64,000 nucleotides of DNA, from positions 62,001 through 126,000 of the forward strand of contig NZ_JALHQD010000011.1 in assembly GCF_022842145.1 (NCBI RefSeq), written 5' to 3'. This DNA comes from Tabrizicola sp. GTDB taxonomy: Bacteria; Pseudomonadota; Alphaproteobacteria; Rhodobacterales; Rhodobacteraceae. The position numbers and the translations under genes are program-made. Under the pieces are notes generated by a model. The model was given only the letters and a program-made list of their open reading frames with translations. It was not told the DNA's origin and did no database searches. Below, in pieces: positions 6,050 to 24,618 of this stretch; position 1 is the stretch's first letter, and every line of letters starts with the position of its first letter.

Positions 6050-8890
6050 TCAGGCAGCGTCCAGCCAGGGTCGCAGCAGCGCCATCGGATGGGCGCGCAG
6101 GGTCAGGCGCATGGCAACGTAATCCTCCACCACCGCCTCGCCCGTGGTCATCTCGCGGAAGCGGACGGCGGGTTCAACGATCCCCTCGCCCTCGATGTCG
6201 TTGGCAAACAGAGGGAGCGGGGAGTCCTTGGCCAGCGCCGCCGAAGCCCAAAGCGCATCGCGGCGGCCAAGGCCCAGCGCGGCGAAGACATCGGCCTCGG
6301 CCAGTCGGCTTAGCGTCGCGGGGCCGACCCCGGCCCGGCGCCAGACATCCTCGACCGTCAGGTAGCCGTTCCCGCGCGCCCCGGTGATCCAGCGGGCCTC
6401 CTCCTCGGCGATGCCCTTGATCTGCCGGAAGCCAAGGCGCAGCGCCAGTTCCGGGGCCTTGCCGGCGCGGTTCAGCCATTCCATCCGGTTGTCCCAATGG
6501 CTGGACTGGATGCAGGGCGGCAGGACGGTGACGCCATGTTCCCGTGCGTCGCGGACGATCTGGGCCGGGGCGTAGAAGCCCATCGGCTGGGAATTCAGCA
6601 GCGCACAGGCAAAGATGCCGGGATGATGCCGCTTGATCCAGGCCGAGGCATAGACCAGCAGCGCAAAGCTGGCGGCGTGGCTTTCGGGGAAGCCGTAGCT
6701 GCCGAACCCTTCGATCTGCGCGAAACAGCGCCGGGCAAAGTCCTCGTCATAGCCCTTGGCCAGCATCCCCCCGATGAACCGGTCGCTGAATTCGCTGACG
6801 TTGCCATGCTTCTTGAACGTAGCCAAAGACCGCCGCAGCCGGTCCGCCTCGTCGGGGCTGAACCCCGCGCCGACGATGGCGATCTGCATCGCCTGTTCCT
6901 GGAACAGGGGCACCCCCAACGTCTTGCCCAGCACCTTTCCCAGCTCGTCCGAGGGGAAGCTGACCTGCTCCTGCCCATTCCGCCGCCGCAGGAACGGGTG
7001 CACCATATCCCCTTGGATCGGCCCCGGCCGGATGATCGCCACCTGGATCACCAGGTCATAAAAGCACTTCGGCTTCATCCGCGGCAGAAAGTTCATCTGC
7101 GCCCGGCTTTCCACCTGGAACACGCCAAGGCTATCGGCCCGGCAAAGCATCCGGTAGGTCTCGGCATCCTCGGGCGGAAGGGTGGCAAGCGAGAACCGCT
7201 GGTGGTGGTGCTTGTCCAGAAGGTCGAAGGCCTTGCGGATGCAGGACAGCATTCCCAGCGCCAGGATATCCACCTTCAGGATCTTCAGCGTGTCGATGTC
7301 GTCCTTGTCCCAGGGGATGACCGTCCGGTCCTCCATCGTGGCGTTTTCCACCGGGCACAACTCATCCAGCCGGCCCTCGGTGATGATGAACCCGCCGACG
7401 TGCTGCGACAGATGCCGGGGAAAGCCCTGGATCTCGTCGATCAGCTGCATGGTCTGGGTCAGCCGGTGGTCGGTCGGGTCCAGCCCGATCTCCTTCAGCC
7501 GCGTCTCGGTCACCGCCCCAGGCCCGCCCCAGCCCCAGATCTGGCTGGACATGGCGGCCAGCGTATCCTCCGACAGGCCCATCGCCCGCCCCACCTCGCG
7601 CACCGCGCGCTTGCCGCGATAGTGGATCACCGTGGCGCACAGCCCCGCCCGGTGGCGGCCGTAGCGTTCGTAGATGTGCTGGATCACCTCTTCCCGCCGC
7701 TCATGCTCGAAATCGACGTCGATGTCCGGCGGCTCATTCCGCGCTTCCGAAATGAACCGCTCGAACACCATCGTCCCGATTTCCGGCGACACCGAGGTCA
7801 CGCCCAGCGCGTAGCACACGACCGAATTCGCCGCCGAGCCCCGCCCCTGACACAGGATGCCGCGCTGGCGGGCGAAGGCCACGATGTCGTGGACGGTCAG
7901 GAAATAAGGCTCGTACCGCAGCTTGCCGATCAGCGCCAATTCATGCGCCATCTGCGCCCGCGCCCGGTCCGGGGGGCCTTCGGGATAGCGCCACTCCAGC
8001 CCCGCCTCGGCCAGCCGCGCCAATCGCTCAGCCGCGGTTTCGCCCCCCGAAACCTCGGACGGATATTCATACTGCAACTCGTCCAGCGAGAACGCCGCCC
8101 GCGCCGCCACCTCCCCCGCGCGCAAAACCGCCGCCTCGTGCCCGGCAAACAACCGCAGCATCTCGGCCTCCGACCGCAAGCGCCCCTCGTTGTTCGGCAA
8201 GGCCTTGCGGCCCAGCTTGTCCACCGGCACCCCCAGCCGGATCGCCGTCAGCACATCCGCCAACCGCCGCCGCCGCCCGTGGTGCAAGGACGGAAGCGCC
8301 GTCGCCACCACCGGCACGCCCAGCGCCCCCGCCGCCTTCGTCAACCGCTGGAACCGTCCCTGATCCTGCCCGTCATAGCGCGGCGCCATCCCCAGGCTCA
8401 CCTGCCCCGGAAACCGCGCCGCCAGCCGGACGACATGGGCGCGCCAAAGCCGCGCCTCCATCGCCTCGCCCACCGCCGCCAGAGTCAACCGCTGGTCGGG
8501 GGGCAGGACCAGAAGCTCCATCCCGTCGCCCCACTCCAGGAGGTCCGCCAGTTCCAGCCGACACTCCCCCTTCACCACCCGCAACCGGCCCCGGCTCAGA
8601 AGCCGCGACAGCCGCCCCCACCCGGCCCGGTCGCGCGGGAGACACGTCACCTGGAACCCGTCCTCCAGCACCACCCGCGCCGCCGGGATCAGCCGCACCT
8701 TCGGCCCGCCATCCCGCGCCAGTTCCCGCGATTTGGTATGCGCCCGCACGATCCCGGCGACCGAGTTCACATCGGCCACCGCAATCGCCTCCATCCCCAT
8801 CTCGGCAGCACGCAGGATCATCTCCTCGGGGTGCGAGGCCCCGGTGAGGAAGGTGAAATTCGTCAGGGCAGACAACTCGACGAAGGGCAT
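6050..8890 (-). CDS. dnaE2: Error-prone DNA polymerase III alpha subunit DnaE2 (ImuC), C-terminally truncated
   Basis: MPFVELSALTNFTFLTGASHPEEMI start, PDIDVDFEHERREEVIQHIYERYGR, RPGPIQGDMVHPFLRRRNG; ends at LRAHPMALLRPWLDAA*. Confidence 0.9.
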   Translation of the reverse strand: MPFVELSALTNFTFLTGASHPEEMILRAAEMGMEAIAVADVNSVAGIVRAHTKSRELARDGGPKVRLIPAARVVLEDGFQVTCLPRDRAGWGRLSRLLSRGRLRVVKGECRLELADLLEWGDGMELLVLPPDQRLTLAAVGEAMEARLWRAHVVRLAARFPGQVSLGMAPRYDGQDQGRFQRLTKAAGALGVPVVATALPSLHHGRRRRLADVLTAIRLGVPVDKLGRKALPNNEGRLRSEAEMLRLFAGHEAAVLRAGEVAARAAFSLDELQYEYPSEVSGGETAAERLARLAEAGLEWRYPEGPPDRARAQMAHELALIGKLRYEPYFLTVHDIVAFARQRGILCQGRGSAANSVVCYALGVTSVSPEIGTMVFERFISEARNEPPDIDVDFEHERREEVIQHIYERYGRHRAGLCATVIHYRGKRAVREVGRAMGLSEDTLAAMSSQIWGWGGPGAVTETRLKEIGLDPTDHRLTQTMQLIDEIQGFPRHLSQHVGGFIITEGRLDELCPVENATMEDRTVIPWDKDDIDTLKILKVDILALGMLSCIRKAFDLLDKHHHQRFSLATLPPEDAETYRMLCRADSLGVFQVESRAQMNFLPRMKPKCFYDLVIQVAIIRPGPIQGDMVHPFLRRRNGQEQVSFPSDELGKVLGKTLGVPLFQEQAMQIAIVGAGFSPDEADRLRRSLATFKKHGNVSEFSDRFIGGMLAKGYDEDFARRCFAQIEGFGSYGFPESHAASFALLVYASAWIKRHHPGIFACALLNSQPMGFYAPAQIVRDAREHGVTVLPPCIQSSHWDNRMEWLNRAGKAPELALRLGFRQIKGIAEEEARWITGARGNGYLTVEDVWRRAGVGPATLSRLAEADVFAALGLGRRDALWASAALAKDSPLPLFANDIEGEGIVEPAVRFREMTTGEAVVEDYVAMRLTLRAHPMALLRPWLDAA

Positions 8891-8945: not shown

Positions 8946-9995
8946 TCAAACCAGCCGCTTCACCGCTTCGGCCACTTGGGCGGCGATCTCCGGCAAAGCC
9001 TCGGGCCGCAGGTCAGGGGCTGCAACTTCGGTCAGCGGCACTGCCATCCGGTCACGGTGCTTGCCGTAACGCGGGTCGTAATGGCGTTCCATCAGCCCGT
9101 CGGCCAGGGTGGCAAACTGCCCCGAGGCTGCCAGAGCCAACCACGCGTCGATCACCTCCGCCGGATGCGAGGGGCGCAACAAACCCACCGTTGCCGCCAA
9201 CCGCCCCGCGTCACAGGTGAGGTCGGCATAGGCCCGCGCCAGATACTCCGCCCGCACCAGACGGGGTGCGGCAATCGCCACGCGCGGGGCGGCGACCATT
9301 GCCTTCCAGATTTCCGGAGGCAGGCGGCAGTTGCCGATCTTGGAGCTTTCCGCTTCGACCACCACGGGCCGCGAGGGGTCCAGTCCGGCCAAGGCCAGAG
9401 CCAAAGCCCCTTCGAAGGCCTTCTGCGACGGCTGCGGACCGATTGATCCGAACAGCGAACCCCGATGCCGCGCAAGGCCCTCAAGGTCGATCACCTGCAG
9501 CCCGAAACCGGGCAGCAGGTTCAGGACGTCGGTCTTGGCCGACCCGGTATTGCCGTCCAGCACCACGACCGGCGCCCTCACGGGAGTGTCATAAACCTCG
9601 TGCACCACGAGGCCGCGCCAGGTCTTGTAGCCGCCGACCAAAGTCTCCACCCGCCAGCCGATCTGGCCAAGGATCGTCGCGAACGACCCCGAACGTTGCC
9701 CGCCCCGCCAGCAATACACCAGCGGCCGCCAGCCCCCCGGCTTGTCGGCCAAGGGTCCCAGCAGATGAATGGAGGCGTTCTTCGCGACCAGGGCTGCACC
9801 GATCTTGCGGGCGGAAAAGGGGGAAACCTGTTTGTAGATCGTGCCGACTTGCGCCCGCTCCTCGTCGTCCAGAACGGGCAGCGACATCGCGCCCGGCAGG
9901 TGATCCTCGGCAAATTCGGCCGGTGCGCGCACGTCGATGATGTCATCGAAACCATGCGTCGCCAAATCGGCCAGGGAGGTGAGGGTGATTGCCAT
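8946..9995 (-). CDS. mnmH: tRNA 2-selenouridine synthase
   Basis: Rhodanese domain (IIDVRAPAEFAEDHLPGA, YCWRGGQRSGS) plus P-loop VLDGNTGSAKTDVL. Confidence 0.92.
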   Translation of the reverse strand: MAITLTSLADLATHGFDDIIDVRAPAEFAEDHLPGAMSLPVLDDEERAQVGTIYKQVSPFSARKIGAALVAKNASIHLLGPLADKPGGWRPLVYCWRGGQRSGSFATILGQIGWRVETLVGGYKTWRGLVVHEVYDTPVRAPVVVLDGNTGSAKTDVLNLLPGFGLQVIDLEGLARHRGSLFGSIGPQPSQKAFEGALALALAGLDPSRPVVVEAESSKIGNCRLPPEIWKAMVAAPRVAIAAPRLVRAEYLARAYADLTCDAGRLAATVGLLRPSHPAEVIDAWLALAASGQFATLADGLMERHYDPRYGKHRDRMAVPLTEVAAPDLRPEALPEIAAQVAEAVKRLV

Positions 9996-10083
9996 CACGG
10001 AACTCTTACCGGCCCCGGCGGAAAGGTGCCAGCCCATCCCGATCACGGGAAATCCGGACTACCCACGGACGCGTGAACAGGGC

Positions 10084-11435: not shown

Positions 11436-12584
11436 TCAGATGCCCGCCTCCAGCCGGCCCACCAGCGCCGCCAGCATCGCCCGGCACCGCTCGACCTGCT
11501 CGACCGAGACGAATTCGTCCGGTTTGTGACCCTGGGCCATCGACCCCGGCCCGCAGATCACCGTCGGAATGCCCAGACGGGCATCGAAGAGCCCCCCTTC
11601 CGTCCCAAAGGCCACCTTGATCGTCCCATTCGCCCCCGTCAGCCCCTTGACGAACCGCACCACCTCGGCGTCCGCAGGGGTACCGAGGCCGGGATAGTCC
11701 CACAGCCTCTCCACCCGGATCGCCGCCTCGGGAAACTCCCCCCGAAACGGCGCGATGATCGCCTCCGCCTCGACCTCCAGCCGCCGGATCAGGCCTGCCA
11801 CATCCTCGCCCGCCAGTGACCGGATCTCGAAATCCAGGGTGGCATGGTTCGGCACGATGTTGACCTGCACGCCCCCCTGCATCTTTCCCACGTGCAGCGT
11901 CGTGTAGGGCACGTCGTAGTCCGCATCCTGCAACCCCGTCGCCGCAACCTCGGCCTGCAATCGCCGCGCCGCCGTCAGGAAATCCCCCGCCAGATGCAGG
12001 GCGTTCAGCGCCAGCGGGGCCAGGGCGGAGTGCCCTTCCCGTCCGATGCAGGTTGCCCGCAGCGCCACCTTGCCCTTGTGACCCGTGGCGACCTGCATCC
12101 CCGTCGGCTCGCCCACGATGCAGAAGCGGGCCTTCACCGGGGCCTTTTCCAGCATGTCGATCAGCGACCGCACGCCCATGCAGCCGATCTCCTCGTCATA
12201 GGACAGCGCCAGGTGCAGCGGCACCTTCAACGGACGGCCTGCCGCCAGCAGCATCGCCTCGATAGCGCAGGCGACGAAGCCCTTCATGTCCGCGGCCCCG
12301 CGCCCATAGTAGCGGCCGTCCGCTTCGGTCAGCGCGAAGGGAGGCTTGGTCCAGACCTGCCCCTCGACCGGCACCACGTCGGTATGGCCGGACAGCATGA
12401 CGCCCCCGCCAGCCTCTGGCCCGGTCGAGGCAAAGAGGTTCGCCTTGCCTCCCGCGGGGTCCGGCACCAGCGTGACGCGCAACCCCGCGCCCTGAAGCAG
12501 GCTGCGGACATAGTCCATCAACGCCATGTTGGGCTTGGAGCTGACGGTGTCGAAGGCCAGAAGCCGGTCCAGGATATCGCGCAT
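11436..12584 (-). CDS. argE: Acetylornithine deacetylase (M20 family)
   Basis: 382 aa; LSGHTDVVPVEGQVW, YGRGAADMKGFVA, YDEEIGCMGVRSLI. Confidence 0.9.
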   Translation of the reverse strand: MRDILDRLLAFDTVSSKPNMALMDYVRSLLQGAGLRVTLVPDPAGGKANLFASTGPEAGGGVMLSGHTDVVPVEGQVWTKPPFALTEADGRYYGRGAADMKGFVACAIEAMLLAAGRPLKVPLHLALSYDEEIGCMGVRSLIDMLEKAPVKARFCIVGEPTGMQVATGHKGKVALRATCIGREGHSALAPLALNALHLAGDFLTAARRLQAEVAATGLQDADYDVPYTTLHVGKMQGGVQVNIVPNHATLDFEIRSLAGEDVAGLIRRLEVEAEAIIAPFRGEFPEAAIRVERLWDYPGLGTPADAEVVRFVKGLTGANGTIKVAFGTEGGLFDARLGIPTVICGPGSMAQGHKPDEFVSVEQVERCRAMLAALVGRLEAGI

Positions 12585-12695
12585 GGGTCACCTCTCTGGC
12601 TTCTGCTAACGCGAAACCGGTGGGGCGGAAAGCTTTCCGGTCTTGTCCCTGGCCCGCAGCTTTGCCAGACTCGCGGTCAATCACAAGAAAGCCCG

Positions 12696-13376
12696 ATGCG
12701 CCTCCCCTTCCTTTTCACAGTCATTATCCTTGTCCTCAGCCTCTTCGCGCGGGCTGAGGCCCCGAACCTTGCGCCGGACCCAAAGGGTGTGCCGGGTGCG
12801 GCGGCACGGCTGGTCCTGGCCCAGCAGACTTATGAAAGCGCGCTGCGGACCGGCGATCCGGTGGTGCTTATCACTGCCATCCGCCTGGCCCGCGACGTGA
12901 CCCTGCGCCCGCCGGCAGCCTGGACCCGAACGACGGAAGGTCCGCCCGTCCCGGACCAACCCGACGGGCGATCCGGCGCGCCGAATCCGGCGGGACCGGA
13001 GGCCATCGCCATCGCGCAGGGTCTGGCGGGGGACGATCCCGATCTGCAGGACCTGGTCTATGATCTGGACGCCCAGTTGCCGCACGGTCGCCGCGCGACC
13101 GCGATCGATGCCGCAGCGACGCTGGACGGCGGGCAGGCCGACGACTGGCGGCTGGTGCTGGCGGGGCAGACGGAAGCCGAACTGGGCCTGATCGGCGACG
13201 GTGACAGCGCGCTGAGCCTGACCGTTGCCGATGACAGCGGAAACGTGGTTTGCGCGGTCCCGGCAGGCGTCGCATCGGCATTGTGCCGCTTCACCCCGGC
13301 CCGCAACGGCTTTTTCACCGTGAGGGTGAAGAACAGCGGCACCATCCGGAACAGCTATCGGCTGGTCGGGAACTGA
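12696..13376 (+). CDS. Secreted protein of unknown function, paralog of next gene
   Basis: Signal peptide; C-terminal GDGDSALSLTVADDSGNVVCAV...FFTVRVKNSG-NSYRL resembles a PPC-like beta domain. Confidence 0.75.
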   Translation: MRLPFLFTVIILVLSLFARAEAPNLAPDPKGVPGAAARLVLAQQTYESALRTGDPVVLITAIRLARDVTLRPPAAWTRTTEGPPVPDQPDGRSGAPNPAGPEAIAIAQGLAGDDPDLQDLVYDLDAQLPHGRRATAIDAAATLDGGQADDWRLVLAGQTEAELGLIGDGDSALSLTVADDSGNVVCAVPAGVASALCRFTPARNGFFTVRVKNSGTIRNSYRLVGN

Positions 13377-13485: not shown

Positions 13486-14310
13486 ATGATGCTTAAAGGA
13501 ATTTCACTTGCCCTTGCCACCACGGCGCTGGTCGCCGTAGCCCTGCCCTCTGTTGCCCAAGACAAGTCCGGCCCCAATGTCGGTGCCGCAGCCGCGGGTG
13601 CGACCCCGGGAGGCGCTTCGACGTTGGGGCTGGCACAAGAGCTTTATGCCGTGGGTATGGCCCAGGGCGATGCGGTCACGGTGCTCGCCGCAGCAAAGCT
13701 TGCCGCGTCGGTCGAGGTGACGTCGGCCGAGGCGGCAGCATTGGACCCCGTAATCATCGAGGTCGGTCCCGACCAGACCACCTTCGCCAAGCGGAAGGCG
13801 GCGCCCGCACCGGTCCCAGCCGCTCCGGCACCGATGATGAACGAAGGCGAACCCCGCCCGGCCGCAAAGGCCACCTTCTTCACCGCCGCGAACGAAGACG
13901 AAGGCGCAGCCGACAGTCCGGTGACCGCCGAGGCGATGTTCGCCAGGGCCCGCGAATTGGCGGCCGATGACGAGGCGCTGCTGGGCCTGGTCGACGACGC
14001 GCTGGCCGAAGGCTCGCGCGGGCGGATCGGTGGCGCAGTCGAGTGGGTGTCGCGGTTGCCATCGGGCCAGACCGACGTCTGGGAGATCCCCTATTACGGC
14101 AACTCCTACGCCGAGATTGCGGTGGTCGGCGACGGGGACGCAAACTTGGATGTGGCCGTGACGGACGAAAACGGCAACGTCATCTGCTACGATGTCAGTT
14201 GGTCCGACAAGCTGTACTGCGACTGGACCCCGGCCTGGGACGGCTACTTCTACGTCACCGTGCAGAATCTGGGCGGGTCGCGGAACAGCTACTATCTGCT
14301 GACCAACTGA
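13486..14310 (+). CDS. Secreted protein of unknown function, paralog of previous gene
   Basis: Signal peptide; GDGDANLDVAVTDENGNVICYD...YFYVTVQNLGGSRNSYYLLTN. Confidence 0.8.
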   Translation: MMLKGISLALATTALVAVALPSVAQDKSGPNVGAAAAGATPGGASTLGLAQELYAVGMAQGDAVTVLAAAKLAASVEVTSAEAAALDPVIIEVGPDQTTFAKRKAAPAPVPAAPAPMMNEGEPRPAAKATFFTAANEDEGAADSPVTAEAMFARARELAADDEALLGLVDDALAEGSRGRIGGAVEWVSRLPSGQTDVWEIPYYGNSYAEIAVVGDGDANLDVAVTDENGNVICYDVSWSDKLYCDWTPAWDGYFYVTVQNLGGSRNSYYLLTN

Positions 14311-16525: not shown

Positions 16526-17359
16526 ATGGTACAAAGCGGTTCCGAAGGCGACATCCTGCACCCGCTTGAGGTGGCAGAATGGCACCTTTGGGTTCTGCGC
16601 ATCTCGAAGATCATTGCCCGGGCCTGGACCGACGAAACCTTCAAGCAGGAACTTCTCGCTGATCCCGCGGCCGCATTGCGGGCCGTGGGGCTTGCCGTGC
16701 CGACCGGTGCGGAAGTCGTCGTCGAGGAGGGTGGGACAAGCTGGTCGATGAGCGGCTCGTCCTTGACGCGGATGGACCGCCTGACCCTGCCGCTGCCGCC
16801 AAAGCCCACGGCCGATGCCTTGCTGACTGCCTGGGCGGCGGGGGAGACCGGCCATCCGCCCATCCTGTCCGATCAGGGCACGGTAGCCTTCTCCGGGCTG
16901 CCCGCACATGCGGACGGCGCCGCGCCGTGGCGGGCTGCCGATGGTCGACGCGTCTTCGGAGACGCCGGTCTTCCAGCGGACGCAGCCGCGCGACGGGTCG
17001 GGGCCGCGCGTCGCATTGTCGACGACAGCGACTTTTCAAGTGCGGAGTCCGTGGCACGTCGCACGGCCGAAGCGCGGCGGATCATCGATGACGAAGATCC
17101 GATGGCCCTGGACGCCGAGGCCCGTCGCACGACCGAAGCGCGCCGGATTGTGGATGAGAACGGCCCGGAAGCCGCTGATGCCGCTGGACGCCGGACGTCC
17201 GACGCCCGGCGGGTCGGAGATGACGAGGGTCCGACGGCTGCCGATGCAGCGGGCCGTCGCGTGGCGGGTGGGCGCAGGGCCACCGAAGACGGCGATGGAC
17301 CACGTCCGCCGAAGCGGCCGGTAAAGCCCGGCCAGAAGCCCGCAAAGCGCAAGAAGTGA
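16526..17359 (+). CDS. Candidate RiPP precursor: nitrile-hydratase-like leader peptide (NHLP) followed by Arg-rich tandem repeats
   Basis: IIARAWTDETFKQELLADPAAALRAVGLAVPTGAEVVVEEGGT matches NHLP leader pattern; C-terminal 22-aa RRxxxARR repeats; same locus as ycaO/tfuA. Confidence 0.75.
   Translation: MVQSGSEGDILHPLEVAEWHLWVLRISKIIARAWTDETFKQELLADPAAALRAVGLAVPTGAEVVVEEGGTSWSMSGSSLTRMDRLTLPLPPKPTADALLTAWAAGETGHPPILSDQGTVAFSGLPAHADGAAPWRAADGRRVFGDAGLPADAAARRVGAARRIVDDSDFSSAESVARRTAEARRIIDDEDPMALDAEARRTTEARRIVDENGPEAADAAGRRTSDARRVGDDEGPTAADAAGRRVAGGRRATEDGDGPRPPKRPVKPGQKPAKRKK
16928..17278 (+). repeat. Coding tandem repeats, 66-bp/22-aa units
   Basis: Units RRVGAARRIVDDSDFSSAESVA / RRTAEARRIIDDEDPMALDAEA / RRTTEARRIVDENGPEAADAAG / RRTSDARRVGDDEGPTAADAAG, with degenerate flanking units. 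Confidence 0.9.
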
Positions 17360-17431
17360 CGGGCCGACGCGCAGACACCGAATGAGGAACTGAGCGTCTG
17401 GCCCCGGACCGTTCGGAACTATGGAGGGTGT

Positions 17432-20400
17432 TTGACCGTCAAGCCTGACCTGCAATCGCTGAACCGCCACCGTGAGCAGGCCGTTGCACGCCCGCTCTGC
17501 CCAGAATTCATTTTGAATCACCATCGGGCGGGGCGGACTGACGGCGTGATTGACGCCTGCGCGATCGACATCGACATTTCCGGCTTTTCGCGTGTGACCG
17601 ACGCCTTAAGCCTGCGCGGTCCCGAGGGCGCGGAGCTTCTGGCAGATATCATCCGCGCCATATTCGAGCCGCTTACCTCCTGCGTGCATGAATATGGGGG
17701 CTTTGTTGCAAGCTATGTGGGCGACGGATTTCTGGCCCTGTTCCCGCAGGGGCCGGGCCTGGATGATGCAGTGCGGCGCGGTCTGGCGGCCGGATGGGAA
17801 ATGCGCCAGACGATCCGGTCGCGCCACAAGTTCCGCACTCCGTTCGGCACGTTCGACATCAAGGCCCGTATCGGCATCGCAGAGGGGCAGGTGCGCTGGC
17901 GCATCTTCGGTGATCCTCGTCGCCGCCGTCACGTCTACTACTTCGACGGGACCCCGATCGTGGAGGTTGCGAAAGTTCGCCAGCTTGCCGGTCTGGGAGA
18001 TCTGTTTGCGACCCTGAGCGCCGCTGCCAAATTCGCCGACGCCGCCACGACGACGGCCACCGGGGACGCAGCCGCGCGCAACGTCGAGAATGTGGATAAC
18101 CTGCCGCTTCCCTCGATGCTTGAACCCGCGCGCGTCACGGTCGATCCCCTGGTCCTGGATTTCGTCCCGGAGAGTATCGCCACGGCCAGCGGCACCGGGG
18201 AATTCCGCCAGACAACGAACCTGTTTCTGAAACTGGAGTTTCCCCAGCGCGATCTTGACCGGTTCGTCCAGGCGATATTCGAGGCGCAGGACCGTTTCGG
18301 TGGCTGCGTGAACGGGCTGACGGACGGCGACAAGGGTTGTACGGCGATGATCTTCTGGGGCGCACCGATTGCCACCGAAGACGACATCGGGCGCGCGCTG
18401 GAGTTTTGCAGTCATGTCATGGCCCGGCTCGATCTGACGATCAGCGCCGGATTGACCTGCGGGCTCGCGCATGCGGGCTTTTCGGGATCGACGCGCCAGG
18501 CGGTCTATACCTGCTCAAGCCGCCATGTGAACCTTGCGGCCCGGTTCATGTCGGCGGCACGGCCCGGCACGCTTTATCTGGACAAGGCTGCACGCGATCA
18601 CGCGCTGGAGCGTTTCGAGACTGAGTTCGTAGGCAATCTGGAACTGAAGGGATTTTCCGAGCCCCAGCCGGTCTATGCCCTGGGCAAACGCAAAGACAGC
18701 CAGTCCAGGCTTGCCACGTCGGGCGGGATCGTCGAACGCGAGCAGGAGATTTCCGAACTGCTTGGTGCGGTGGATCATGTCTTTCAGACGGGCAGAGCCG
18801 GGGCCGCGGCCGTCGTCGGAAGTGCCGGTTCGGGCAAGACCGCAGTGCTGACTGCGCTGGAAGAGCATATCCTTGCGGCGGGGACAAAAGGCCATGCGCC
18901 AGCGGCCGAGATCATCCAGTTGACCGCCGAGACAGGTCTGGGACGACCGTTCGGCCCGTTCCGCAAAGTGCTGGAGGATTTGCTGGGCCTGGTTGGCGTA
19001 GCGGCAGGCAATGAACGGCGCACCGTGTTCGATGCTGCGTTCGACCGCCTGCAGACAGGCACGGACAGCGCCGTTCTGAAGGAAGAGCTTGGTTTTGTGC
19101 GTTCGTTCCTTGCCGCTCTTCTGGATGTGAACCTGGCCGGTTCGACCTTTTCACAGGTCCCGGAACTGCGGACCAGCAACACCGCGCAGGCGATGATCGT
19201 GGCGCTGCAGGCCCTTGCAGGTTCGCGGAGGCTGATCGTCATCGCCGACGATCTACATGCGTTCGATGCGGAATCGCGGGAAAGCCTCCATCTGATGACG
19301 GATCAGAGCGCAGTGCCGGTCGCGGTGATTGCCAGCAGCAGGCTTGACGACAGCGGCGAAATCCCCGGGCTTCCCTTTGCGCCGGAACGATTGCTGACCC
19401 TGGTTTCCCTGCGCGCGCTGGGACCGGATGCCGTTCGCGCGGTTGCGGAAACGGCCCTTGGCGCGCCGGTCTCCACCCGCCTGGTGGATTACCTTTTGGA
19501 GAAGACTGCGGGAAACCCGCTTTACCTGGAACAGCTTATACTGACGCTGAACACTTCAGGCGGTTTTGTACGTCTTGGGACAGGTCAGACCGCGCGCGTC
19601 GAGCTGGCCCCCGATGCCTCGGCCCATATTCCGCAGGGTCTGAGCGGGGTCCTCGTGGCCCGCATTGACCGCCTGCCGGCGCGGCTGAAGTCGGTCATCC
19701 AGGTTGCCGCCGTGCTGGGCTACGAGTTCGAGGTTCCGTTGCTGGCGGCGATGCTCGGCGACGACGGCATGGTGGCGGCCGCGCTTGAGGCCGGTCAGGC
19801 CCAGCAGATCTGGGAGGAGCAGTCCCCGGGACGCTTCCGCTTTCGACATGCGATGCTGCGCGATTCCGTCTATGACATGCAGCTTGTCGTCGTGCGGCGA
19901 AATCTGCACCGGCAGGCGGCGCAGGCCCTGGAACAGCTGGCGGGCAAGCCCGACCTTTTGCGGCTGGGTGCGCTGGCCTACCACTTCGAGCACGCCGAAA
20001 TGCCCGAGATGGCGCGGCGCTACCTGCTCATGGCGGGCGACATGGCGCATGACAGCTATGATGTGCCTAACGCAGTGCGCTACTACCGGATGTTGCTGAA
20101 ATCCGAGATCGAAACGAGCTTGCAGGTCCGCCTGTCCGCACGGCTTGGGGCCTTGCTGGTTCTGACCGGCGACTGGGAAGAGGCGCTTGCGACGCTGGAC
20201 AGCGGGCTTTCGGCGATCCTCGGTGCCGACGATCCCGCGCAGGAGATCGAGATCCTGATTGCCATGGGCGATGTGCTGCGCCAGTCGGGTGATTTCGCCC
20301 GGGCCCGCGAGCGACTGGAACTTGCCCGCGCCATCGCCCGCCGATCAGGCAATGAACTGATGCTGTGCAAGGCGCTTGGCATCCTGGCCGGGACGTACAA

Positions 20401-21388
20401 GTACAGCGGCGACTATGCCCGCGCGCTGGTGATCTATCAGGAGGCGCTGGTCGTGGCCGAGCGCGAGCAGGAAGACAACATCGTCGGGGTGTCGCTGGCT
20501 GGCATCGCCTCGATTCACGGGTTGCTTGGCGCCTACGAGAAGGCCATCGAATACAACAGACGGGCCATCCCCATCCTGGAGCGGATCGGCAACCGGAATG
20601 AGCTGGTCTATCCGATCGCAAATCTTGGCATCGACCTCTTCACCATCGGCAAGCACGAAGAGGCGCTGGAGATCTTCGAACGGGCCTTGCTTGAATCCAG
20701 CGCAATCGGAGATCGGGCAGGGATCTGGTTCACCTATCATTTCATTGGGCGCCTGCACCATGAAACCGGCGCGTTTCACCGCGCAATTCAGGCTTATGAA
20801 CGGGCAATGATGGAACGTCGCGCCTTGGGGGGCGACAGCATACCGTTCAACACCCTGCCGCATCTGGCATCGGCGAAAGCGGCATTGGGTCAGGACGCCG
20901 CCGCCATTGCCGCACTTTCAGCCCATCTTGATGTGCTCGAAGGAGGCGAACCGGATCACGAGCACGGATTGACCTATCTGGAGGTTGCGGGGCTTCTGGG
21001 CCGTCGCAGCAGCCTGTCTGCGGACCTGCAAACCGCGCTTGACGCTCTGGCCGCCCGGGGTTTTGGCGACGACCCGCTGGCATGGCTGCAGGCGGCGGAA
21101 AAAAGCGCCCGCACCGGTGAATCAATGGGGATGAACAGCCGCGTCAGAATTCTGGTCGCCTGCGCAGCGCACTGGTTTGCACAAGGCGGGATATCGGCCC
21201 AGGTAGTTGGCTGCCTTGCCGCCGCAGAACGTCTTGCGACCGCCTTCGCCATGGCCCGAGAGGCCGGGTTCGTGCGCGACCGCGCCCGGGAAATGGGGAT
21301 CAGCGCAGAGGCGCTTGGCCGCGCCGAGCCGCTCTATCAGCCCTTTGCGCCCCACGGCGTCAGGCAGGCGGTTTTACAAACACCATAA
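17432..21388 (+). CDS. Tandem class III nucleotidyl cyclase-homology / P-loop ATPase / TPR protein (1318 aa)
   Basis: DIDISGFSRVTDAL...YVGDGFLALFP; second cyclase-like LTCGLAHAGFSGSTRQAVYT...VNLAARFM; P-loop VVGSAGSGKTAVL; C-terminal TPRs. Confidence 0.88.
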   Translation: MTVKPDLQSLNRHREQAVARPLCPEFILNHHRAGRTDGVIDACAIDIDISGFSRVTDALSLRGPEGAELLADIIRAIFEPLTSCVHEYGGFVASYVGDGFLALFPQGPGLDDAVRRGLAAGWEMRQTIRSRHKFRTPFGTFDIKARIGIAEGQVRWRIFGDPRRRRHVYYFDGTPIVEVAKVRQLAGLGDLFATLSAAAKFADAATTTATGDAAARNVENVDNLPLPSMLEPARVTVDPLVLDFVPESIATASGTGEFRQTTNLFLKLEFPQRDLDRFVQAIFEAQDRFGGCVNGLTDGDKGCTAMIFWGAPIATEDDIGRALEFCSHVMARLDLTISAGLTCGLAHAGFSGSTRQAVYTCSSRHVNLAARFMSAARPGTLYLDKAARDHALERFETEFVGNLELKGFSEPQPVYALGKRKDSQSRLATSGGIVEREQEISELLGAVDHVFQTGRAGAAAVVGSAGSGKTAVLTALEEHILAAGTKGHAPAAEIIQLTAETGLGRPFGPFRKVLEDLLGLVGVAAGNERRTVFDAAFDRLQTGTDSAVLKEELGFVRSFLAALLDVNLAGSTFSQVPELRTSNTAQAMIVALQALAGSRRLIVIADDLHAFDAESRESLHLMTDQSAVPVAVIASSRLDDSGEIPGLPFAPERLLTLVSLRALGPDAVRAVAETALGAPVSTRLVDYLLEKTAGNPLYLEQLILTLNTSGGFVRLGTGQTARVELAPDASAHIPQGLSGVLVARIDRLPARLKSVIQVAAVLGYEFEVPLLAAMLGDDGMVAAALEAGQAQQIWEEQSPGRFRFRHAMLRDSVYDMQLVVVRRNLHRQAAQALEQLAGKPDLLRLGALAYHFEHAEMPEMARRYLLMAGDMAHDSYDVPNAVRYYRMLLKSEIETSLQVRLSARLGALLVLTGDWEEALATLDSGLSAILGADDPAQEIEILIAMGDVLRQSGDFARARERLELARAIARRSGNELMLCKALGILAGTYKYSGDYARALVIYQEALVVAEREQEDNIVGVSLAGIASIHGLLGAYEKAIEYNRRAIPILERIGNRNELVYPIANLGIDLFTIGKHEEALEIFERALLESSAIGDRAGIWFTYHFIGRLHHETGAFHRAIQAYERAMMERRALGGDSIPFNTLPHLASAKAALGQDAAAIAALSAHLDVLEGGEPDHEHGLTYLEVAGLLGRRSSLSADLQTALDALAARGFGDDPLAWLQAAEKSARTGESMGMNSRVRILVACAAHWFAQGGISAQVVGCLAAAERLATAFAMAREAGFVRDRAREMGISAEALGRAEPLYQPFAPHGVRQAVLQTP

Positions 21389-22220
21389 GCTGCATCGCCA
21401 GGGGAATGACGACCTGGTCTTCACCGTGGCTTTCGAAAAGGCGCTGGACTGCGTGCCGCACCTTCTGCCTGCCGACCTCCCGCAACCTGCGCATCAGGTA
21501 TTCGCCTTCGAGGAACGTGAGGTATTCGCTGACCGACATCCGCATCAAAAGCTCAAAGGACTGGGGCGCGCGATGCGGGATCATGCCGGTCTGCACATGA
21601 ACCAGATGGGCCAATACGGCGGGGTCCGAGATATCATGATCGCTGGCGAGACCCTTCAGAAGCTGCGGTTGTTCTGCGGCCACGGCTTCCCGCAGGATCT
21701 GAATGTAAATCTTGTCGATCGAGCCTTCCTTGGGCGGCCCGTCCACGACAACCGCCATCCGACCGCCGGTCCGCAAGACGCGCCCGACCTCCTTCAGGGT
21801 CGCGTCGACCGGAATCATGACCGCAAGTCCCATGTGGTTCAGCACGCAGTCGATGCTGCCGTCCTCCAACGGCAAGTCCTGCGATTGCGCCAGAAACAGC
21901 CGCACCGGTGCCGGATTCAGGCGCTGTCTGGTCCTTTCGATCTGCTCGGCAACAAAATCGACGCCAATCAGGTTTTGAGGTGGCAGGCCGCGTTGCAACA
22001 GGACCTCGGACAGGCGACCCGAGCCGCAACCCAGATCAAGCACCACCGGCGCCGCCCCGTTCTGCGCCAGCGCTTCCGCCTCGGCTGCCAGCAAGGCATA
22101 GCTGCTAGGACCCAGTGTGGTTTCGACGTCCGGGAAAGAGCCGTCGAAGGTTGTGTGAAAGCGCTGCACGAAATCCGCGTCAAACCTGTGGTCTTCTGGC
22201 CCGTGCGGATGTTCGGCCAT
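21360..22220 (-). CDS. SAM-dependent class I methyltransferase in RiPP operon
   Basis: VVLDLGCGSGRLSEVLLQRG SAM motif; ATGA overlap with tfuA stop. Confidence 0.85.
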   Translation of the reverse strand: MAEHPHGPEDHRFDADFVQRFHTTFDGSFPDVETTLGPSSYALLAAEAEALAQNGAAPVVLDLGCGSGRLSEVLLQRGLPPQNLIGVDFVAEQIERTRQRLNPAPVRLFLAQSQDLPLEDGSIDCVLNHMGLAVMIPVDATLKEVGRVLRTGGRMAVVVDGPPKEGSIDKIYIQILREAVAAEQPQLLKGLASDHDISDPAVLAHLVHVQTGMIPHRAPQSFELLMRMSVSEYLTFLEGEYLMRRLREVGRQKVRHAVQRLFESHGEDQVVIPLAMQLMVFVKPPA

Positions 22221-23314
22221 CAGGCGCTCACCTTTACCGGTGAAAACCGGTGCAACCGTTCGAGAAAGCGGTCCGGGTCCGCGAAACCAACGGCTGCGGC
22301 CAGTTCCGCCAGTCTGCGCGCAGGGTCCAGTCCTGCCCGCTGACAATAGCGCGTCACGACCGCACTGTCGGGACCTTCGCAGGGGCGCAGGCCGTCGCTT
22401 TGGTCGCAGGCAACCGCTTCCTGCAGCACGGTCTCGTAGATCCCTTCGTCCCGCAAGGCCGCGATGACCCGGGGTAACGGAGCGCGGGCGCGGGCACGGG
22501 CAAGCGACACCGAGCCCTCGGCCAGACGGTAGCCTTCCAGCAGATAGAAATCGATCAGCGCACCGGTGGTGATCCGACCGTCACCAACTCGGGCAAGGCA
22601 GGTGTCGCGGTCGGCAAGGCGTTCGAACTTCGTGGTCCTGTTGAAGCGGAAATCCGGTCGCCCGACGCGCTGCCAGGCATTGCCGGCCAGCAGGTCCAGC
22701 ATCTCCAAAGCGTCAAGGCGCTTCTGATCGACCCGCTGGGCGACGGACAAAGCGTCGACCTCCGCCCGCGGCAGGCCCAGTCGGGCGGCATCCGCCACCA
22801 GACGCTGATGGCTGCGCTGCCAATAGGGCGTGGCGGCGCAGACACTCAGCAGCGCTTGGGCGCTTTCCAGCGACAGGGTTCCCGCCCGCACCGCAAGATC
22901 CAGCGTCGCGCGGATATTGACCATCGCCTCGCTCAGGGGACGGTGGCCGATGGCATGCGGGGCGTGGATCACCGCGACTTCATCGTCGGCTTCAAGGAAG
23001 CCGCTGCGGTACCACTGGTAAATGCGCCCGACGCCGACCATGCCGAACGCATCCAGTTCCGCCGCCCGCAAGGCGCCCATGCTGGCCGCACCGAAAACGG
23101 GGATGCCACAATCCAGCGCGTGCAGGATCTCCTTGTGCCAGACGGCCGGCACAAGCTGGAAATAGCCGTCGATGATCCCGATGGCGTCCGGCTTTTCGGC
23201 GACGAGCGACAGGATATCACCCTGGGAAACCGGCGGCAGGTAGCGCGCCGCCAGCCGGTCCTGCGCCTCGGCCCGGTCCAGCGTCGGACCCAGGAAGACG
23301 ACGACGCCGCTCAT
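22220..23314 (-). CDS. tfuA: TfuA-like protein
   Basis: VVFLGPTLDRAEAQDRL...YLPPVSQGDILSL...IGIIDGYFQLVPAVWHKEILHALDCGIPVFGAASMGALRAAEL. Confidence 0.93.
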   Translation of the reverse strand: MSGVVVFLGPTLDRAEAQDRLAARYLPPVSQGDILSLVAEKPDAIGIIDGYFQLVPAVWHKEILHALDCGIPVFGAASMGALRAAELDAFGMVGVGRIYQWYRSGFLEADDEVAVIHAPHAIGHRPLSEAMVNIRATLDLAVRAGTLSLESAQALLSVCAATPYWQRSHQRLVADAARLGLPRAEVDALSVAQRVDQKRLDALEMLDLLAGNAWQRVGRPDFRFNRTTKFERLADRDTCLARVGDGRITTGALIDFYLLEGYRLAEGSVSLARARARAPLPRVIAALRDEGIYETVLQEAVACDQSDGLRPCEGPDSAVVTRYCQRAGLDPARRLAELAAAVGFADPDRFLERLHRFSPVKVSA

Positions 23315-24618
23315 GCCACCGCACCTCTGCGCCGGGCACCGACACGGACCGGTGTCGTCCAGCTTGCGAGAAATCCGTCGATCCGAGCACCCGGCGCTGC
23401 CTTGTTGTCGATGCCGGGTTCGACGAGGCCGGGCACGACAACCTTCACGACAGGGATGCCGATGTCCGCGATGCTGAGATCGACCACCACCACCTGACCG
23501 AAACCGTGCCGGACCAGCAGGTCCAGGATCCCACCAAGATCGACCGCGACATCATCGCTGGCCCAGCCACCGACGTCGCGAAAGTCGGTTGCCACGGTGC
23601 CACGTTCCAGCCAGGCCAACCAGCCGCGCCGGTTTCGGACAGTCTGGATGCTGGCGTAGTCATCGCGAAACAGATCGTCGCGCGCGCCAGAGATGTAGGT
23701 CAATCGCGATTGCACCGCCTCGGTTATCGCGCGCGAGAGGGCCACGCCTGGGTCGGGATGACAGCCATAGCCCTGAAAGGTGCCGATGGGCGCCCCGAGG
23801 ATCCGGCTTCCGGGTCGATCGGAAATCGAGCACCCAAAGGACGGCACGCCCAGATCGCTGTATTGCGCCCAGACGTGCAGGTCGATCTCTGCCGCCTCGA
23901 TCCGGTCCATCAGCCAAAGGCACAACGGGTCATCGATCGTCGTCAGGTCGATCAGCGCCGGCTCGTACCCGACCCTTGCCGAAAGAGCCTGATGCAGGCA
24001 AGTCGCATCGCGCTCGATCACTTCGCAGACAGCGTGGAGGATGGCCTCCTCGCGGGTGTTGCCGGCGCCAAGCCCGTTGGAACTGGTCAGAAACACTCCG
24101 TCACTGGGGGCGTCCAGACGCAGGTCGCAAGCGACAACGTCGCGCGGCACCCTGACGGGGCCACCAGCAATCAGGTCAAGGCCGCGCACCCAGTGAAGCG
24201 GTCGATGCACAAGGTTGCTCTGCTGTCCCGACAACAGCGAAAGACGGCCGGGATCCACCCCATGTGCAGCCCCCAGCCTTGCGTAGCTTGCTTTCTCGAC
24301 ATCCCGGAAACTGCGTTCGGCGTGGAAAAGCTCAATCGCTTCCATCGCAGCGGAAACGCGCGCGTGGGCCAGCGTCACTCCTTTGCCTTGGGATACCGAA
24401 AGCGAGCGTGCATTCGGACGGATTGCATTGCAGACCGGAATACCGATGCCATCCAGTCCGGTCACATCAGCGATCCGCGTTATTCCCACATCAGGAAGGA
24501 TCGGGGCGATCCGCGCCCAGGTCTCGGTGGGATCGGCTGTCCGGTGCGTTCCGGAAAAGAAACGCTTTTTCGTGGCACTGGCTGCACGGGTTACATCCAT
24601 GAAGGAACACTGGCGCAT
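23311..24618 (-). CDS. ycaO: YcaO-domain protein (TfuA-partner type)
   Basis: IPVCNAIRPNARSLSVSQGKGVTLAHARVSAAMEAIELFHAE, HAVCEVIERDATCL; ATGA overlap with tfuA start. Confidence 0.94.
   Translation of the reverse strand: MRQCSFMDVTRAASATKKRFFSGTHRTADPTETWARIAPILPDVGITRIADVTGLDGIGIPVCNAIRPNARSLSVSQGKGVTLAHARVSAAMEAIELFHAERSFRDVEKASYARLGAAHGVDPGRLSLLSGQQSNLVHRPLHWVRGLDLIAGGPVRVPRDVVACDLRLDAPSDGVFLTSSNGLGAGNTREEAILHAVCEVIERDATCLHQALSARVGYEPALIDLTTIDDPLCLWLMDRIEAAEIDLHVWAQYSDLGVPSFGCSISDRPGSRILGAPIGTFQGYGCHPDPGVALSRAITEAVQSRLTYISGARDDLFRDDYASIQTVRNRRGWLAWLERGTVATDFRDVGGWASDDVAVDLGGILDLLVRHGFGQVVVVDLSIADIGIPVVKVVVPGLVEPGIDNKAAPGARIDGFLASWTTPVRVGARRRGAVA

Follow-up and report, generated by a model that had tools for sequence, protein, structure and literature searches.

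The question raised by this locus is what becomes of a protein that joins a nitrile hydratase-like (NHLP) leader to Arg-rich repeats and is encoded opposite a ycaO-tfuA pair. The window, i.e. the whole 64,000-nucleotide stretch of Tabrizicola sp. DNA analyzed here, contains five genes that in our view probably form a horizontally spread RiPP-like cassette, in which thioamidation of the repeats would be guided by the leader and followed by methylation, with a protein resembling soluble adenylyl cyclase (sAC) as regulator or reporter. Such a cassette would tie backbone thioamidation to cyclic-nucleotide signalling, and its precursor would serve as a small YcaO-TfuA substrate open to testing, in which Arg-containing sites recur many times in nearly identical form.

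Two of the genes lie on the forward strand. The first (16526..17359), identified from its ORF and profile matches, encodes the 277-aa candidate precursor, which consists of the leader, Arg-rich repeats and a Pro/Lys-rich tail. After a gap of 72 bp, an ORF at 17432..21388 encodes a 1318-aa sAC-like protein with two cyclase domains (C1 and C2), an AAA_16 ATPase domain and TPRs. Convergent to this pair are three reverse-strand genes, which encode YcaO (435 aa, 23311..24618), TfuA (364 aa, 22220..23314) and a class I SAM methyltransferase (286 aa, 21360..22220; PF08241, 3.6e-18). This arrangement agrees with a preliminary description of the DNA, which had also reported ATGA overlaps throughout the reverse-strand group. 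The YcaO/TfuA junction is indeed ATGA; however, the TfuA/methyltransferase junction is TGATG, where the methyltransferase ATG at 22220 overlaps the tfuA stop codon. We preferred this start to the upstream TTG of the listed 328-aa ORF.

Judging from profile and fold matches, the N-terminus of the window precursor is probably a divergent NHLP leader, as had been proposed. The NHLP leader model TIGR03793 matched residues 27–69 only (16604..16732, +; E = 6e-11), with 42 bits against a curated cut-off of 50.9, and PF02979 (NHase_alpha) matched above the Pfam cut-off (E = 6e-7). The NHLP-Burk precursor model TIGR03795 scored 31.3 bits, below its cut-off of 41. NHLP homology was found in the leaders of all three known precursor copies (the other two are from Ruegeria, see below), and the NCBIfam matches of the Ruegeria copies were similar to those of the window. 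An AF2 model, built from three sequences only, predicted a helical/beta leader domain at residues 12–104 (pLDDT ~60–92) with helices at 13–35, 37–45 and 47–53, strands at 63–90 and a helix at 96–104. The top Foldseek match to this model was 8tb1, a solved proteusin precursor (probability 0.97, E = 0.046), and many nitrile hydratase alpha chains appeared among the lower-ranked matches.

The probable modified region lies at approximately residues 136–253 (16931..17284, +), where paired [AG]RR hexapeptides are arranged in the 22-residue units already noted in the preliminary description; AF2 modeled this region with low confidence. The window precursor contains 11 [AG]RR motifs with a 22-residue period. 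Each Ruegeria copy has 16, and its hexamers, of the type [AG]RRVx[ED] (ARRVxE), follow one another in tandem. The repeat number thus varies while the leader is conserved among the three precursors.

In our favored reading, the NHLP-type leader would be bound by YcaO and/or TfuA. That NHLPs can be recognized by a YcaO cyclodehydratase via protein–protein contacts (PMC12455567) speaks for this; that no RRE-containing partner was recognized speaks against it. YcaO would activate backbone amides with ATP, TfuA would draw on a thiocarboxylated ThiS-type protein of the host to supply sulfide, and thioamides would be installed within or beside the [AG]RR motifs. The product would then be methylated by the methyltransferase. 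The sAC-like protein, with its composite C1/C2 site, ATPase and TPR sensor region, would produce a cyclic nucleotide and thereby control the pathway or report on its product. Points against this reading are the NHLP score below the curated threshold, the low model confidence of the repeats, the small number of known members (three), and the findings on proteases, exporters, double-Gly sites and CRP/FNR boxes given below.

The main rival holds that the thioamidated (and methylated) repeat protein stays in the cell uncut and unexported and works together with the cyclase protein, McrA and uL16 being known cases of such in-place modification. We regard this as possible, although rather unlikely. 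In its favor, no protease or exporter gene was found within the five-gene cassette, and no C39 peptidase (PF03412) in the host genome (99.99% complete), compared with 8 positives among 14 control genomes. A double-Gly cleavage site after the leader is absent from all three precursors; one is present in the NHLPs of another locus (L209). The precursor is also split in charge, with an acidic leader and a basic repeat tail (pI 8.3–10.2). The closely spaced cyclase gene is always part of the cassette, and YcaO and TfuA are nearest to archaeal enzymes that act on a housekeeping protein. However, RiPP maturation could rely on host proteases and exporters encoded outside the cassette, as in thiovarsolin (PMC6511847), and a leader followed by repeats is the typical layout of multi-core RiPP precursors.

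YcaO (PF02624, 1.4e-78) had MJ1094 as its closest solved relative (6pe3, 1.4e-40); TfuA (PF07812, 4.5e-46), which consists of an archaeal-type core (residues 4–210) and a C-terminal extension, was closest to 6xp8 (1.2e-48). The best curated matches of the two proteins were the McrA thioamidation models TIGR03266 and NF033432, both under cut-off. The pair is of the thioamidation type, matching the solved archaeal pair. In habitats that are not rich in sulfide, YcaOs that form thioamides generally rely on a ThiS homologue and TfuA (PMC13063428), and the host genome contains two ThiS-family sulfur-carrier matches. Because the nearest relatives of YcaO and TfuA are thioamidation enzymes and ThiS-family proteins are available, thioamidation appears far likelier than azoline formation, and we infer that the repeat region is most likely its target.

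The preliminary description had left the choice between thioamidation and azoline chemistry open, and we favor the former. Azolines are unlikely at the window precursor because it contains no Cys and because YcaO scored 111 bits with the SagD (TOMM) model, for which the cut-off is 219. A TOMM-like pathway, in which YcaO would form azolines, azoles or amidines and no thioamides, is suggested by the NHLP and TOMM_kin_cyc homologies, which point to TOMM clusters. We nevertheless consider it very unlikely: in addition to the missing Cys and the low SagD score, Ser and Thr are scarce in the window repeats, the cassette contains neither a cyclodehydratase C-protein nor a dehydrogenase, an NCBIfam search gave no match of YcaO to TIGR03882 (fused cyclodehydratase/docking), and TfuA is present.

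Two Ruegeria genomes (L026 and L027; L025 denotes the L027 locus again) carry all five genes in an identical order and convergent orientation, and the association of the repeat protein with ycaO and tfuA is therefore kept in related genomes. As a single-sequence query against genome contigs, the precursor found nothing; the Ruegeria loci were recovered with a two-sequence precursor alignment. When the precursor was searched for in the family (298 genomes) and in the genus (32 genomes), one further true precursor was found, and a scan of approximately 85,000 species yielded two true loci, both from Ruegeria. The cassette is present in 1 of the 32 genomes of the genus; it is rare, with three known members. 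Other hits were not counted: locus L003 and most plasmid matches were nitrile hydratase alpha genes, most other weak matches across the family covered the same short stretch only, and locus L028 from an uncultured alphaproteobacterium offered a 30-aa match and no cassette.

Protein identities between the window and Ruegeria were ~58–72%, with the methyltransferase at ~50%. Between the Ruegeria copies, dN/dS ranged from 0.10 to 0.18 across the five genes (0.11 for the precursor); between the window and Ruegeria it ranged from 0.09 to 0.24, with dS near saturation. These ratios indicate that all five genes, the precursor included, are under purifying selection. The window cassette is flanked by genes for adenine deaminase and an M20 peptidase, and the Ruegeria cassettes by those for an FAD oxidase and a caspase-like/SEL1 protein (the Ruegeria names were read from sequence). 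Because the flanks differ, the five genes seem to be transferred together as one block, in keeping with horizontal spread. A search of the genus for an empty integration site found one relative with both flanking genes, on separate contigs, and the cassette is unremarkable in its GC content. That the convergent groups are unrelated neighbors and the repeat protein a degenerate nitrile hydratase fragment would suit the weak NHLP score and the lack of a shared promoter, but this explanation is largely refuted, and the least probable of all, given that the five genes travel together in differing genomic settings and that the precursor is under strong purifying selection with its repeats conserved.

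We compared the cyclase protein with known cyclases and found that the best PDB match of residues 1–423 was human soluble adenylyl cyclase ADCY10, with an alignment spanning both catalytic domains. C1 (residues 39–192; 17546..18007, +) retains Asp48 and Asp98, which align with D47 and D99 of ADCY10, residues that we take to be metal binding, and has lost the Asn and Arg. C2 (residues 254–417; 18191..18682, +) retains Thr360, Asn367 and Arg371, corresponding to T405, N412 and R416, and has lost the metal Asp residues. Each domain thus lacks what the other keeps, and the pattern is common to the three homologues. These complementary half-sites predict one composite C1/C2 active site, as in sAC, and the protein is built like that enzyme. 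The position of Lys334, presumably the adenine-binding and adenine-selecting Lys of sAC, is occupied by Gly in all three homologues, so base specificity may differ from that of sAC.

The AAA_16 domain (residues 434–633; 18731..19330, +; PF13191, 6e-14) is followed by a TPR region at approximately residues 929–1169 (20216..20938, +; PF13424, 1e-25, in three stretches). The AF2 model of the N-terminus had a mean pLDDT of 37. The match to TIGR03903 (TOMM_kin_cyc), a protein that belongs to NHLP-Burk clusters, was partial at 121 bits against a cut-off of 705.75, and the kinase domain is absent. A comparison with Pycsar defence gave weak local similarity of C1 to PycC (2e-8) and no match of an effector model to any cassette protein, and a defence role is not favored. 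The regulatory role that had been assigned to the cyclase protein is plausible; however, no CRP/FNR-like boxes were found upstream of or near the cassette genes, and because such sites are absent the regulatory link is unsupported at the DNA level.

We further analyzed 34 other YcaO-TfuA neighborhoods from Alphaproteobacteria, which were collected with a TfuA alignment; YcaO was detected in 33 of them. A relative of the window cyclase was found at 12 of the 34 loci, whereas 40 control regions taken from this genome set contained none (Fisher, 2.5e-5). A second sample gave a cyclase/ATPase/TPR neighbor at 14 of 35 loci, and the pooled counts were 26/69 versus 0/40 (Fisher, 9.5e-7), although the second-sample loci are phylogenetically non-independent, many being from one genus, and the controls were drawn from first-sample genomes. 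When cyclase presence was mapped onto the YcaO tree, 8 changes were required, at least 4 of them forced by well-supported branches, which indicates repeated gain or loss of the association. Two of the survey cyclase proteins matched TIGR03903 at 418–453 bits with the kinase part absent, and CRP-type regulators adjoin several survey clusters. These results suggest that, in Alphaproteobacteria, YcaO-TfuA pairs are recurrently accompanied by a cyclase/ATPase/TPR protein.

The leader HMM matched none of the 34 other neighborhoods, so the ARR-type precursor is seemingly confined to the window/Ruegeria clade. NHLP precursors adjoin YcaO-TfuA in an alphaproteobacterial lanthipeptide-like locus. At several survey loci, we found other repeat-tailed ORFs on the ycaO-tfuA strand, with tails of SGAKV (L065, L066), SGARV (L067, L068), SRAVMA (L087), GRSDLV (L085), AGRWA[IV][ST]P (L077), DDSQRHAANFIGTTP (L080) and GGKQRFA (L094, L095), or with Ala/Pro-rich repeats (L093, L191, L193, L195). 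Pfam and NCBIfam searches of the tested ORFs gave no convincing family; the repeats alone produced pentapeptide-repeat matches, which were weak or marginal. A repeat score of at least 18 was reached at 10 of 34 loci and in 3 of 40 controls, one of which was a masked stretch; the score separates loci from controls less well than cyclase neighbors do, and only a few of the 35 second-sample loci scored high. The repeat theme, which was noticed after data inspection, is frequent among YcaO-TfuA loci and not universal. The tails suggest that short repeats with a basic residue recur among the candidate substrates of these loci. Neither this pattern nor the recurrent cyclase partner was found described in the open-access papers searched.

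A broader proposal, which we consider unlikely and put forward tentatively, is that there is a family of bacterial systems in which YcaO-TfuA thioamidates a repeat-tailed protein without its release, and a dedicated sAC-like ATPase/TPR protein senses the result. It is equally doubtful that the window represents the NHLP/ARRVxE version of such a system and that loci with SGARV, SGAKV, SRAVMA and GRSDLV tails represent others. If this were true, the thioamide would be part of a cyclic-nucleotide signalling device and not of a secreted peptide.

The preliminary description had not recognized the combination as a described RiPP class. That it is unlike anything described is not supported, since NHLP-Burk clusters, actinobacterial NHase precursors with TfuA-YcaO, the NHLP precursors of the lanthipeptide-like locus and thiovarsolin repeats are precedents. 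In thiovarsolin, a YcaO-TfuA pair forms a thioamide at a Pro-Arg bond of a repeated core; ycaO and tfuA are adjacent, and the precursor is likewise a leader followed by imperfect Arg-containing repeats (PMC6511847). The window differs in its NHLP-type 130-aa leader and in units of ARRVxE ([AG]RR[VIT]) instead of APR, and its cassette contains a methyltransferase and a cyclase protein, whereas the varO heme oxygenase, amidinotransferase and ATP-grasp genes are missing. NHLP-Burk TOMM clusters combine an NHLP-type precursor with a YcaO enzyme (PMC2887384), and they (TIGR03795, TIGR03882 and TIGR03903) resemble the window also in a large TIGR03903-related cyclase/ATPase/TPR protein; the window, however, lacks the fused cyclodehydratase-docking protein, the kinase domain on the cyclase protein and a C-terminal Cys, and has TfuA and Arg repeats. 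NHase-domain precursors occur beside TfuA-YcaO in Actinobacteria (RiPPER Network 7, PMC6511847) and share the leader type; the available part of that source mentions neither Arg repeats nor a cyclase.

The YcaO and TfuA that thioamidate a glycine of methanogen McrA are the nearest curated and solved relatives of both window enzymes, which nevertheless score under the curated cut-offs, would have another substrate and include a C-terminal extension on TfuA. ADCY10 shares the order of tandem C1-C2 cyclase and P-loop NTPase domains and the division of metal Asp (C1) and Asn/Arg/Thr (C2) residues, whereas the window cyclase is bacterial, with Gly at the K334 position and a TPR region. Proteusins and NHLP lanthipeptides probably share the leader fold and sequence clan, but the window has no double-Gly site, LanM, radical SAM protein or PCAT exporter. 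A global TfuA survey reports Nif11-like precursors in Ruegeria, among others, and its main text makes no mention of cyclases; we likewise found no description of YcaO-TfuA with a cyclase/ATPase/TPR protein in the open-access papers searched. Every ingredient of the cassette has a precedent; it is the assembly that is new, and it does not constitute a new class.

Among the alphaproteobacterial YcaO-TfuA neighbourhoods sampled for comparison with the window, L065-L068 each encode an unannotated protein (6822-7565 (-), 12284-13165 (+), 9496-10014 (+) and 7607-8110 (-), respectively, in each locus's own coordinates) whose C-terminal end consists of approximately 7-11 tandem pentapeptides, SGAKV or SGARV. 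These genes are located downstream of ycaO-tfuA, and the intervening gene encodes an HExxH protein of approximately 430 aa, which gave nothing more than a weak hit to M36 peptidase. Repeat-tailed ORFs were also observed in L087 (SRAVMA, ~12 copies; 11719-12594 (+)) and L085 (GRSDLV, ~4 copies; 12380-12982 (+)), where they are accompanied by YcaO, TfuA, an HExxH-type protein and a cyclase protein resembling TIGR03903. Upstream of the repeats, a short motif resembling R-x-x-D-x-x-L-[YF]-x-[VI] is common to the SRAVMA ORF, itself a candidate precursor, and the candidate precursors of L076 (11821-12057), L077 (11800-12753), L080 (11928-12344), L094 (11651-12088) and L095 (11462-11869), and is possibly a docking hairpin for YcaO/TfuA.

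In the window itself, two neighbouring ORFs with signal-peptide-like starts (12690-13376 (+) and 13486-14310 (+)) have similar C-terminal ends (GDGD..., R-NSY); the latter had no match in Pfam or NCBIfam.

CRP-type (cNMP-binding) regulator genes adjoin YcaO-TfuA in L069, L070, L071, L076, L077, L080, L081 and L082, and in several of these eight loci a cyclase gene lies in the same cluster, which suggests local cyclic-nucleotide control.

Several NHLP precursors are encoded in the lanthipeptide-like neighbourhood L209 (13441-19217), and two or more of them carry double-Gly sites. They lie close to a YcaO-TfuA pair and a 1015-aa ORF that we guess to be LanM-like, and this locus may specify a thioamidated lanthipeptide.
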